Positions 2,363 to 5,777 of a stretch of 5,777 nucleotides of DNA are shown piece after piece. Under the pieces are notes generated by a model. That model searched no databases, was not told the DNA's origin, and worked only from the letters and a program-made list of their open reading frames with translations. Positions within the stretch are counted from its first letter, which is position 1, and the number at the start of each line of letters is the position of its first letter. Position numbers and translations under genes: made by a program. Origin of the DNA: Victivallales bacterium (GTDB lineage Bacteria > Verrucomicrobiota > Lentisphaeria > Oligosphaerales > Oligosphaeraceae). The DNA lies in the NCBI GenBank assembly GCA_017963875.1, contig JAGCTA010000426.1, forward strand, positions 1 to 5,777. Direction: 5' to 3'.

Positions 2363-4255
2363 ATGAAACGCTTCTTCTGTCTTTTCCTCTGCGTATTCTA
2401 CCTTGTCCACGTCACTCTTTCCGCCGATGACGTACCGCAGTCGTCATCGGCGGCGACTGTCGAGCACCCCGCATTGACGATGCTCCTCGAACCTGTTGAC
2501 GACCCACTACAAGGCTTCAACCGCGCGATGGAATCAGTGAACTCCTTTCTGGTCCGCAGGATAGTGCATCCAATCAGCATTGTCTATAACCGTATCGTCC
2601 CTGAGTTCATATCAACCTCCATCAAAAACTTCTCGCACAACCTGCTGTTTCCCTTGCGTCTTGTCACCAACTGCCTGCAAGGGAAATTCGCCTATGCGTG
2701 GGAGGAGACGGAGCGTTTCTGCATCAACACAACAGTCGGCATACTTGGGTTCCGCGACCCCGCCACCAAATGGGAATTTCAGCGTCATGACGAAGACTTT
2801 GGCCAGACGTTGGCGGTATGGGGAGTCGGCCCTGGCTGCTACGTCAACCTCCCCGCCCTGGGACCATCGAATGTGCGCGACGCTATCACGAAGATTCCAG
2901 ACATGTTCTTGAATCCCGCCACCTATTTCACAGGGGCATCGCTGGCACTCGGCGGCAATTCGCTTTTCTGCAACGCCGCGTTTCTTGACAACTACTTCAA
3001 GTCGCGTCACGTCACTTATCCACTATCCAAGGCAATCTTTATGATGTCACGCGAGGCATTGATTCGCGACGGCGTATTCCCTCCCGTCACGTCTATGCCC
3101 GACGAATCGCTTGGCATCATGAAAATGATCCCCAAGGACAGGCTCTTCTATTCAACCGCCTACGAGCGCTCCGTCACATTGCCAGGTGCCACAAAACCAT
3201 TGGAATACTCCCTGTTCAGACAGCATGTGTTCAACGGCAAAATCATGTTCGTCCTTCCTGGACTTTCATCGACGCGCAACAACACGGACATTGTCGCCAT
3301 GGCGGAAATTTTCCACAAGGACGGGTGGACAGTCGCCATCATCTCCTCGACCTTTACGCCTGACTTCTTCTTATGCACGGATAGTCCGCTTCCAGGGAAC
3401 CTGCCGCATGACTGCCGCAATCTGGATATCGCTCTCACGACCATACGCGACGACATCATGGAATACGAGAAGAAGTCCGCAATGAAAAACTCCAAAGGCA
3501 TTCCAGCGTATCCATCATCGGCGACCTGCCAGGTGTTCGGAGTCTCCCTCGGAGCAATCAACACATTGTATCTGGCTGCATTGGACGACCGTGGCGAAAG
3601 CCGTCTTGGAGCGGAACGATTCATCGCCGTCAATCCGCCACGTACGCCATTAACCGCATTGAAAAAACTAGACGCATGCTTTGACATCCCCTTGTCATGG
3701 CCAGAAGAAACCCGCAAGCAGAAGACGAATGATGCCATTCAGCGCATTGCCTATACGGTCATGGAACCAGAATCGGCCAGAAATATCGCCCTCGACCATG
3801 ATGAATCACTATTTATCATCGGGCTGAACTGCCGTCTAGGCATCGTGGAACTATGCAAGGCACTCAGCGAAACGGAACACCGCCACTTGATTGAGCATGT
3901 CATCCGAATGGATTCGGATGAACATCTGGAACACGATGCCTTTGCGCTTTCATACGAACAGTATCTTCGAGACATTCTGCTATACCACGCCAAACGCTTG
4001 AAAATCGTCCCACAGGACATGACCATCGAGAAATTCGCGGACAACAACACCATTGACTCGCAGGCGGAGCATTTGCGCACCAATCCCAAAGTCCGCTTCT
4101 TCCACAATCAGAACGATTTCCTGCTTGAAGACGGTGATATCGCCTGGTATCAGAGCGTATTCGCAGGGCGGTGCTTCATCTTCCCCGCTGGGAGCCATCT
4201 CGGCAATCTTTTCATACCAGAGGTTCAGGCGGCACTTCTCCAGGCCAGCCGCTGA
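2363..4255 (+). CDS. MlaA/VacJ domain fused to a C-terminal alpha/beta-hydrolase
   Basis: 630 residues in two parts. Residues 1-20 are a signal peptide (MKRFF, hydrophobic core, likely cut near TLSA-DD). Residues about 44-245 are an MlaA/VacJ domain: DPLQGFNRAM (47-56), VTNCLQGKFAYAWEETERF, then RHDEDFGQTL (141-150), VWGVGPGCYVNLPALGPS and the following RDA. MlaA is the outer-membrane protein that extracts mislocalised phospholipid for retrograde transport. Residues about 290-630 resemble an alpha/beta-hydrolase: strand and oxyanion loop IMFVLPGL (294-301), nucleophile elbow GVSLG (393-397, Ser395), a helical cap, acid FHNQND (Asp585) and FPAGSHLG (His612). Normal MlaA is 200-260 residues, so this is a true fusion in one uninterrupted frame. 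No lipobox cysteine is evident. A phospholipase or lysophospholipase role is inferred, not shown. The start at 2363 is chosen because the frame upstream overlaps the pseudopilin gene and lacks a signal peptide; the ribosome site is weak. Confidence 0.85.
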   Translation: MKRFFCLFLCVFYLVHVTLSADDVPQSSSAATVEHPALTMLLEPVDDPLQGFNRAMESVNSFLVRRIVHPISIVYNRIVPEFISTSIKNFSHNLLFPLRLVTNCLQGKFAYAWEETERFCINTTVGILGFRDPATKWEFQRHDEDFGQTLAVWGVGPGCYVNLPALGPSNVRDAITKIPDMFLNPATYFTGASLALGGNSLFCNAAFLDNYFKSRHVTYPLSKAIFMMSREALIRDGVFPPVTSMPDESLGIMKMIPKDRLFYSTAYERSVTLPGATKPLEYSLFRQHVFNGKIMFVLPGLSSTRNNTDIVAMAEIFHKDGWTVAIISSTFTPDFFLCTDSPLPGNLPHDCRNLDIALTTIRDDIMEYEKKSAMKNSKGIPAYPSSATCQVFGVSLGAINTLYLAALDDRGESRLGAERFIAVNPPRTPLTALKKLDACFDIPLSWPEETRKQKTNDAIQRIAYTVMEPESARNIALDHDESLFIIGLNCRLGIVELCKALSETEHRHLIEHVIRMDSDEHLEHDAFALSYEQYLRDILLYHAKRLKIVPQDMTIEKFADNNTIDSQAEHLRTNPKVRFFHNQNDFLLEDGDIAWYQSVFAGRCFIFPAGSHLGNLFIPEVQAALLQASR

Positions 4256-4282: not shown

Positions 4283-5287
4283 TCAATGAAGCCGTTTCAG
4301 ACCGCTGTGAATTTCCAAGAGCGACATGAAACGGCAGTCCAGCGTATGCCCTGCCCTGTAGGAAATTACTTTTCCCGCCAGCCGCCCCTGCGGGCATAAT
4401 GACAACGCTGCAATCAGGTCTAGACAGGCGCGATGCCAGACTGCCTCCAACGATTTTCCCTCATGCAACAGCCCTGGCGTATTGACATATCGATGCTTTC
4501 CTGCGACGAGGATGTTGTCCCGCGTGTAGCCGAAATGGCGTGTTTCGGAATTCAGCCAGCCGAACAGTTTGAAAAGCCTCAACTGCGTTAATGAGCAGTT
4601 TGTTCGGGCGTGTGCGCCATGCACAAAAGCATCAGGTGTCACATCGAACTGAATCCGCTGCTTTCCAATGGCCGTCGGAAAATCAATTGCCACGTCAAGC
4701 GTCAGCAATGAATTTGCAGATTCCGCAGGAAGAAATGTCAAAAAGGCATCTTCTTTTTCGCTGACGATTGAAATAGGCTCGGTAACCGTCCAATAGTCCG
4801 CCGACTGTCCCTGTATTTCGCGGATGCCTGCATTCTGAAGTGCCTCCACAATGGGCATGGAACCGACATCGAACAGCGGGGGGTCATCAGATTCCATCTC
4901 AATGACAAGATGGTCGATGCCAAGTCCCAGGCGGTGTGCAATGACATGCTCCGTCATGCGGACATGGTTTTCAGGAATCCCCGCCTGAAGAACGATGTTC
5001 CGCTGTGAGCAGGAGACATTCGCGACATTCACGGGAATCGGCAACTGCTCAGGCAAATCCAACCTGTTGAAACGCCATCCACCTGAAACGGCTGGTTTGA
5101 ACACCAAGGTCCGCTGAAGCCCCTTGTGATATGTTGACGGGCCAGTGACGGACACTTCCTTTGCGATAGTCGTCTCGCAAAGAGGAGCCTGATAACCGCT
5201 TGGTGCCTTCATGACTTGGTCAACAGGCATTGTCTCAGCAGCCTCTTGGAGCCGTTTCAGAGAATCGCTATTGCCGTAAACAACCAT
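4283..5287 (-). CDS. Divergent LpxC-family UDP-3-O-acyl-GlcNAc deacetylase
   Basis: LpxC is the zinc-dependent cytoplasmic enzyme that commits UDP-acyl-GlcNAc to lipid A synthesis. This 334-residue protein follows the LpxC fold throughout: ETTIAKEVSVTG at the start of domain I, FNRLDLPEQLPIPVNVANV, RMTEHVIAHRLGLGIDHLVI (108-127; E113 and H114 match the general base and first zinc histidine), PLFDVGSMPIVEAL (DGSA-like turn), AHARTN (ARTFGF region), and RAGHTLD (H314, the catalytic histidine of domain II). The second zinc motif is odd: HKXXD is replaced by HRACLD (H285...D290), with one extra residue, and the aspartate equivalent to E. coli D246 appears to be Ala. About 35 extra N-terminal residues precede the family start. 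It could be a second, specialised LpxC paralog rather than the housekeeping enzyme. The start has an excellent ribosome site. It follows a DJ-1 gene by 16 nt. Confidence 0.83.
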   Translation of the reverse strand: MVVYGNSDSLKRLQEAAETMPVDQVMKAPSGYQAPLCETTIAKEVSVTGPSTYHKGLQRTLVFKPAVSGGWRFNRLDLPEQLPIPVNVANVSCSQRNIVLQAGIPENHVRMTEHVIAHRLGLGIDHLVIEMESDDPPLFDVGSMPIVEALQNAGIREIQGQSADYWTVTEPISIVSEKEDAFLTFLPAESANSLLTLDVAIDFPTAIGKQRIQFDVTPDAFVHGAHARTNCSLTQLRLFKLFGWLNSETRHFGYTRDNILVAGKHRYVNTPGLLHEGKSLEAVWHRACLDLIAALSLCPQGRLAGKVISYRAGHTLDCRFMSLLEIHSGLKRLH

Positions 5288-5303: not shown

Positions 5304-5777
5304 TTACGCAAACACCATACCGACGCGCAGTTTTTTCGCTTCATCTTCCAAACCCAGCGCCTTCAGCAGTTCAAAGGCGAATTCGGCAGACGCGCCTGGT
5401 CCCCTGCCAGTGATCAACTGACCATCGCGCTGAACCTGTGCCGCCGTATAGTTGCCGCCAATTTGCTTCTCAAAAGACGGATAGCACGTATATGCCTGGG
5501 TCGTCAGCACGCCTGCGGCCTTCAATGCGATAGGGGCGGCACAGATTGCCGCCGTGAACCCGCCTTGGGCAAACACCTTGCGGACGATTGAAAGCGTCGT
5601 CTCGTCGGCGGCCAGATTCGTTGCGCCAGGAAGCCCGCCAGGAAAAATGGTCATTGCCAGTGAAGACGCATCAAGTTCAGCGGCACGGCAATCGCATGTA
5701 ACAGGAATGCCATGAGCACCTTTGACAACAAGACCATCCCCAGTCACAGCGGCTGTCTTCACCGCCACCCCCGCACG
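5304..5777 (-). CDS. DJ-1/PfpI-family protein (YajL/ThiJ-like), 5' end outside the window
   Basis: 157 residues are visible and the frame is open to the window edge, where it reads RAGVAVKTAAV. This matches the RRAG segment that in DJ-1 proteins follows about 25-30 N-terminal residues, so the GTG at 5768 is not the true start. Family landmarks: VKGAHGIPV, IFPGGLPGATNL, the nucleophile elbow AAICAAP with the reactive cysteine (visible residue 79), TCYPSFEKQIGG, and SRGPG-like GRGPGASAEFAFELL. The conserved glutamate that supports the cysteine (E18 in human DJ-1) would lie in the missing part and cannot be checked. Members act as chaperones, glyoxalases or protein/nucleotide deglycases, and the activity here is not predictable. 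The gene ends 16 nt before the LpxC-like gene and is probably co-transcribed with it. Its promoter is outside the window. Confidence 0.9.
   Translation of the reverse strand, partial: RAGVAVKTAAVTGDGLVVKGAHGIPVTCDCRAAELDASSLAMTIFPGGLPGATNLAADETTLSIVRKVFAQGGFTAAICAAPIALKAAGVLTTQAYTCYPSFEKQIGGNYTAAQVQRDGQLITGRGPGASAEFAFELLKALGLEDEAKKLRVGMVFA

Follow-up and report, generated by a model that had tools for sequence, protein, structure and literature searches.

The stretch of DNA considered here (the window: 5,777 nucleotides of contig JAGCTA010000426.1, from a Victivallales bacterium) raises a simple question: is the open frame in which an MlaA lipid-extraction domain runs on into a serine alpha/beta-hydrolase a genuine gene for one protein and, if so, what would such a protein do with its lipid? 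In Escherichia coli, MlaA passes lipid to MlaC and an inner-membrane transporter. We think that the 630-residue fusion protein encoded by window 2363-4255 (hereafter P0001) is quite probably a single-chain, outer-membrane "extract and hydrolyse" protein resembling the MlaZ-MlaY pair of Pseudomonas, its activity and substrate being predicted from MlaY. The fusion itself is one real single-chain protein, MlaA first and alpha/beta-hydrolase second.

Both halves are recognisable. The MlaA domain matches Pfam family PF04333 with an E-value of 2.7e-53 (181 bits against a curated cut-off of 25), and in a confident structure model of P0001 (predicted local distance difference test, pLDDT, 91; predicted template modelling score, pTM, 0.88) an MlaA fold spans residues 45-238 and an alpha/beta-hydrolase fold the C-terminal part, about 262-630. 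The original prediction, made from the sequence alone, had proposed this succession of domains in one frame, and it stands; the reservation attached to it, that residues 290-630 might match no hydrolase, is removed by the homologues and the fold match.

The fusion is not peculiar to this contig. P0002, which is 79% identical to P0001 over 94%, lies on another contig and has a similar size and an identical domain order, as do P0003, P0004, P0005 and further proteins; indeed P0002-P0028 all show the single-protein architecture of P0001 on other contigs. Those fused proteins that carry organism names come from Lentisphaeria, Victivallales (P0008, P0015) and Verrucomicrobiae (P0146); the architecture thus recurs in Lentisphaerota and related bacteria, where the original prediction had suggested looking for it. 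Several JGI entries (e.g. P0121) have been automatically named both MlaA and pimeloyl-ACP methyl ester carboxylesterase, which means that databases already contain the fusion. Homologue numbers are lower bounds, both protein searches having scored only about 8000 candidates sharing most words. When genome contigs were scanned with P0001 as the sole query, no relative was confirmed; with a narrower full-length alignment (A3) 80 loci were kept, most of which match MlaA only, and five span both regions (L001, L002, L003, L051, L054).

One may ask whether two genes were joined here by an assembly or frame error, as the original prediction itself had cautioned. The gene does lie on a single short contig (5791 bases), and relatives with separate genes exist. 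However, we give practically no credence to this idea, which is ruled out because homologues of the same order occur as single proteins on other contigs; moreover, 49 of the 53 genomes with the hydrolase in the phylum sample described below are fused, in some cases deep inside long contigs.

The catalytic machinery proposed for the hydrolase is also in place. Ser395, Asp585 and His612 each follow the expected strand of the model, that is, they occupy the canonical positions of the fold, and these places lend no support to the possibility, raised beforehand, that the three residues are far apart. The order serine-acid-histidine, the nucleophile elbow, the placement after later strands and the oxyanion loop are all found in P0001, as read from conservation and strand positions. 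In an alignment of 42 proteins P299, G300, S395, G397, D585 and H612, together with D350, are invariant. In a wider set (144 of the 221 collected proteins match the hydrolase-domain profile, and 143 were aligned, P0046 being left out) all three catalytic residues are retained in 141 of the 143 domains, P0141 and P0031 being gapped at one column. Among loci taken from genomes, the serine and the histidine are retained in 35/35 fused, 16/16 MlaA-first split and 4/4 lipase-first cases; the column of Asp585 holds Asp in 34 of the 35 fused loci and in all split ones, and the four lipase-first loci have Ala or Ser where P0001 has Pro299. The spacing between Asp585 and His612 (27) is identical in four MlaY-type proteins encoded beside MlaA-family genes. 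On conservation and fold position, Ser395-Asp585-His612 is the predicted triad.

The elbow itself varies within the family: at least 40 of the 143 aligned domains have a GVSHG-type elbow instead of G-x-S-L/M-G, and a subgroup including P0166 and P0213 has GVSHGG or GVSHGA, with another residue directly after the serine.

What, then, would the hydrolase act upon? The closest parallel is found in P. aeruginosa, where MlaZ (PA3239) belongs to the MlaA family and MlaY (PA3238) is a lipase (PMC11131202, PMC12569750, PMC11977310, PMC10925693, PMC10474453). MlaZ is proposed to draw phospholipid from the outer leaflet and to pass it to MlaY for destruction (PMC12569750, PMC11131202). In mlaY mutants the cardiolipin degradation induced by sphingosine is prevented, MlaY together with MlaZ rescues E. 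coli lacking pldA (as cited from Guest et al.), and the active site of MlaY consists of Ser187, Asp388 and His415 (all in PMC11977310). With our hydrolase profile (A2, 358 positions) we obtained one match each in a Pseudomonas genome (E 1.2e-56, query 17-355) and a Stutzerimonas genome (E 6.8e-56, query 18-354). Each of the two is immediately followed, on its own strand, by an MlaA-family gene, and their Ser-Asp and Asp-His spacings (201 and 27) are those of the published P. aeruginosa MlaY residues; we take them as MlaY-type by neighbour gene and residue spacing, PA3238 itself standing outside the comparison. The catalytic Ser, Asp and His of P0001 fall in the same columns as those of all four lipase-first loci (L084-L087).

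P0001 is thus predicted, on homology, to work like a one-piece MlaZ-MlaY: both couple an MlaA-family protein to a serine hydrolase, with removal and degradation of surface phospholipid as the proposed outcome. This homology to an MlaY-type gene beside an MlaA-family gene lends support to the suggestion that extraction and hydrolysis may be united in one molecule. There are differences. The Pseudomonas loci encode two proteins, the lipase gene first, as in the two-gene MlaYZ operon, whereas P0001 is a single chain in one frame with MlaA first; MlaZ-type proteins fall on the side of stand-alone MlaA in our tree (see below) and the fused MlaA domain does not; and P. aeruginosa has a MlaA-MlaC system in addition (PMC11977310, PMC12569750). 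With the MlaA (VacJ) of E. coli and other Proteobacteria the MlaA domain of P0001 has family and fold in common, but P0001 has a hydrolase attached, and MlaC is missing in 52 of 53 sampled genomes of its type.

The original prediction had instead compared the fusion with MlaA plus PldA, and here it has to be amended. PldA breaks down phospholipid that has arrived in the outer leaflet (PMC11131202), and by analogy P0001 may do the same. PldA, however, belongs to another family (PF02253), which did not turn up in any of the 53 hydrolase genomes of the sample and gives no match to P0001 in the Pfam search (E <= 10), and we reject the identification of P0001 as a PldA-like enzyme. PMC11977310 labels MlaY as homologous to PldA; this does not fit an alpha/beta-hydrolase, and we give more weight to the fold.

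As for novelty, the original prediction knew of no described MlaA-hydrolase fusion, and this has to be qualified. That an MlaA-family protein may feed a lipase has been published before, for a pair of separate proteins; it is the single-chain form of which our literature searches found no description, and neither PMC10665443 nor PMC11131202 contains the words fused, fusion or hydrolase. We therefore regard the fusion as a real and recurrent variant of a known pathway, apparently undescribed.

The distribution of the hydrolase is instructive. Our phylum sample comprised 194 related genomes, all from the phylum of the Lentisphaerae genome G003. The hydrolase profile matches 55 of them at E <= 0.001, and 53 were retained (best E 2.1e-55 or lower); the matches in G055 (E 1.3e-5) and G115 (1.4e-4), and likewise a second weak one in G179 (E 9.2e-6), were set aside because they probably represent other alpha/beta-hydrolases. 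Over the 194 genomes MlaA is present in 74, MlaC in 23, PldA in 19, MlaE in 178 and LpxC in 190, and 103 are devoid of hydrolase, MlaA, MlaC and PldA alike. All 53 hydrolase genomes have MlaA, in one frame with the hydrolase in 49 and as adjacent genes, MlaA then hydrolase, in four (30 loci were read directly: 26 fused, four split). MlaC occurs in one of these 53 and in 21 of the 21 MlaA genomes without hydrolase (Fisher p 1.5e-17, a value that ignores kinship); the one genome, G179, also has a separate MlaA beside its MlaC. PldA is found in 0/53 against 19/141 of the others (Fisher p 0.002, again ignoring kinship). In this sample there is a near exclusion of MlaC where hydrolase and MlaA are paired, and the MlaA-hydrolase arrangement takes the place of an MlaA-MlaC pair.

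In Planctomycetota (the phylum of G004) 12 of 119 genomes match at E <= 1e-15, nine with the hydrolase fused to MlaA; the remaining three (G398, G418, G452) have weaker matches without MlaA in the fetched loci and are excluded from the nine. MlaC exceeds its cut-off in 9/119 genomes of this phylum, including one of the nine with the fusion (G445). In the phylum of G005, 13 of 44 genomes match, 12 with adjacent genes, MlaA first, and one with a fusion at a contig edge, while MlaC is found in 3/44 genomes and in none of the 13. Of 143 genomes from the class to which the Pseudomonas genome G001 belongs, just one matches at E <= 1e-15, namely G001 itself.

Some details of these genomes may be recorded here. 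G124 and G361 each have two fused copies. The hydrolase relatives of G398, G418 and G452 that lack MlaA in the fetched loci (L125-L127, L129-L134) stand in several cases in tandem, and the three that were tested (L125, L127, L132) match Abhydrolase_6.

The split MlaA-first pairs (L083, L093, L094, L095, L098, L135-L145) have the two domains, their order and the catalytic residues of P0001 but are encoded by separate genes; the hydrolase gene of L083 follows closely behind the stop of MlaA and has a signal-peptide-like start of its own. Two split MlaY-like proteins (L140, 775-2727, minus strand; L137, 442-2151, plus strand) have long C-terminal tails rich in Pro and Ala, charged at the end in L140. 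P0046 is a frame of 385 residues with the reverse order, the C-terminal part of a MlaY-like hydrolase running without a stop into an MlaA with a lipobox-like start.

Did the pairing arise once? The tree of MlaA domains has 95 rows (36 fused, 12 split MlaA-first, 27 stand-alone, 16 MlaC-neighbour and four MlaZ-type); it took 27 of the 77 loci L004-L080, about every third, and 12 of the 16 split loci, near-copies being omitted along with L124 and L146. The stand-alone MlaA come from Pseudomonadota, Campylobacterota, Myxococcota and Thermodesulfobacteriota, the MlaC-neighbour ones from the phylum of G003. A branch (99/98) separates the fused and split MlaA-first domains from the stand-alone, MlaC-neighbour and MlaZ-type ones, and the four MlaZ-type proteins join 20 of the stand-alone MlaA (97/88). 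A tree in which the MlaZ-type proteins were forced together with the fused and split set was rejected (approximately unbiased test, p-AU 0.006, for a group named after the tree had been seen). In the hydrolase tree, which used 23 collected proteins and left out L124, L129-L134 and L146, a branch (95/87) divides the four lipase-first genes, along with three MlaA-free relatives found in G004's phylum, from the fused and MlaA-first forms, the split MlaA-first forms being nested inside the latter side; gene order is reversed between the two sides. This tree cannot order fusion and separate genes, since its root is uncertain and the fused state must have changed twice on it. The fused MlaA does not group with MlaZ and the gene order is opposite, so that the pairing of an MlaA-family with a MlaY-type protein probably arose at least twice, in a Pseudomonas line and in a Lentisphaerota/Planctomycetota line. 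The simplest reading of the trees would be that two distinct MlaA lineages each came to be linked to a MlaY-type lipase.

We infer the outer-membrane location of P0001, the extraction, the hand-over, the phospholipid substrate and the periplasmic release of the products as follows. The MlaA half, seated in the outer membrane's inner leaflet, would draw mislocalised glycerophospholipids from the outer leaflet, as family and fold suggest; the fused serine hydrolase, on the periplasmic side, would receive the lipid directly and cleave an ester in it with Ser395-Asp585-His612, with MlaY as the guide to activity and substrate; and the products would remain in the periplasm for recycling, so that no MlaC shuttle would be needed for this step. 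An LpxC-like gene in the window, and LpxC in nearly all of the related genomes, make it plausible that there is a lipopolysaccharide outer leaflet in need of such clean-up.

Other readings have to be considered. The hydrolase might act on another lipid or ester (a lysophospholipid, a lipid A acyl chain, a storage or host lipid) or transfer an acyl group, the MlaA half supplying lipid or serving only as an anchor; we think this unlikely, because the homology to MlaY-type proteins extends over nearly the whole domain and the constant company of MlaA in the phylum sample points to a lipid that MlaA handles. Alternatively, the hydrolase domain could be catalytically dead and have a regulatory or structural role in what is otherwise an ordinary MlaA, and the Glu that replaces Asp585 in one of the 35 fused loci could be cited in its favour; yet residue decay would be expected without catalysis, whereas the triad is almost universally kept and Ser and His are present in all 55 fused and split loci, and we consider a dead enzyme very improbable.

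Several observations nevertheless weigh against the extract-and-hydrolyse reading that we prefer. Besides the Glu just mentioned, Ser replaces Pro299 in one of the 35 fused loci. The hydrolase domain of P0001 has no Pfam match at E <= 10, MlaA being the sole family found (the Pseudomonas hydrolase gene likewise has no Pfam hydrolase match at E <= 0.01, so annotation may miss this domain), and the lipobox pattern present in some relatives is missing in P0001. MlaE, a part of the inner-membrane transporter, is kept in 47 of the 53 hydrolase genomes as in most of the sample, which indicates that lipid transport has not been lost. The two routes are not incompatible, since G179 and G445 carry both hydrolase and MlaC and P. 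aeruginosa has both routes (PMC11977310, PMC12569750). Finally, the Fisher counts may reflect few independent events, because kinship is ignored and the two types separate on the MlaA tree.

Features of the fusion gene in the window
Feature	Coordinates	Strand	Remarks
MlaA-hydrolase fusion gene	2363..4255	+	630 residues plus stop; homologues of same architecture
Signal-peptide-like N-terminus	2363..2425	+	about residues 1-21, read from sequence; putative cleavage site; no lipobox by pattern
MlaA domain	2495..3076	+	residues 45-238
Interdomain junction	3077..3145	+	residues 239-261, limits approximate; from end of MlaA match to chosen hydrolase start
MlaY-like alpha/beta-hydrolase domain	3146..4252	+	residues 262-630 (start about)
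Oxyanion-loop P299-G300	3257..3262	+	invariant in 42-protein alignment; after strand 293-298
Conserved Asp350	3410..3412	+	D in 142/143 aligned domains, one gap; invariant in 42-protein alignment
Nucleophile elbow GVSLG with Ser395	3539..3553	+	alignment conservation, fold position
Catalytic acid Asp585 (predicted)	4115..4117	+	conservation, fold position; 27 residues before His612
Catalytic His612 (predicted)	4196..4198	+	conservation, fold position

The window holds other genes as well. On the plus strand there are a short IS200-like (Y1) transposase match (134-415; 93 residues, profile positions 2-83 of 121) and two tandem pseudopilin-like genes (914-1618 and 1663-2322) that look alike by eye, have an N_methyl motif and match DUF1559 weakly, under its cut-off. 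On the minus strand the LpxC-like gene (4283-5287) converges on the fusion gene; next to it lies a DJ-1/PfpI-like gene (5304-5777), cut off by the end of the window. The listed LpxC E-values of the 194 genomes form two groups, about 1e-79 to 1e-97 and 1e-26 to 1e-40. A promoter and terminator scan gave about as many sites as in shuffles.

More broadly, we would give even chances to the idea that Lentisphaerota and their Verrucomicrobiota/Planctomycetota relatives have rewired Mla from transport to destruction, with a one-molecule device standing in for the return by MlaC. The Proteobacterial pairing, with a different MlaA and the opposite gene order, would then be independent, and the Pseudomonas MlaYZ the exception and not the model, as is suggested by the contrast between 53 of 194 genomes here and one of 143 in the Pseudomonas class. 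Which way phospholipids flow through MlaA, and what becomes of them, has been debated (PMC11131202; title of PMC10212509). A single MlaA-lipase chain argues for removal and breakdown, and it may be purified and assayed as one piece; the phylum as a whole offers a natural experiment in which MlaA goes with MlaC or with a lipase, both being found together in one sampled genome.
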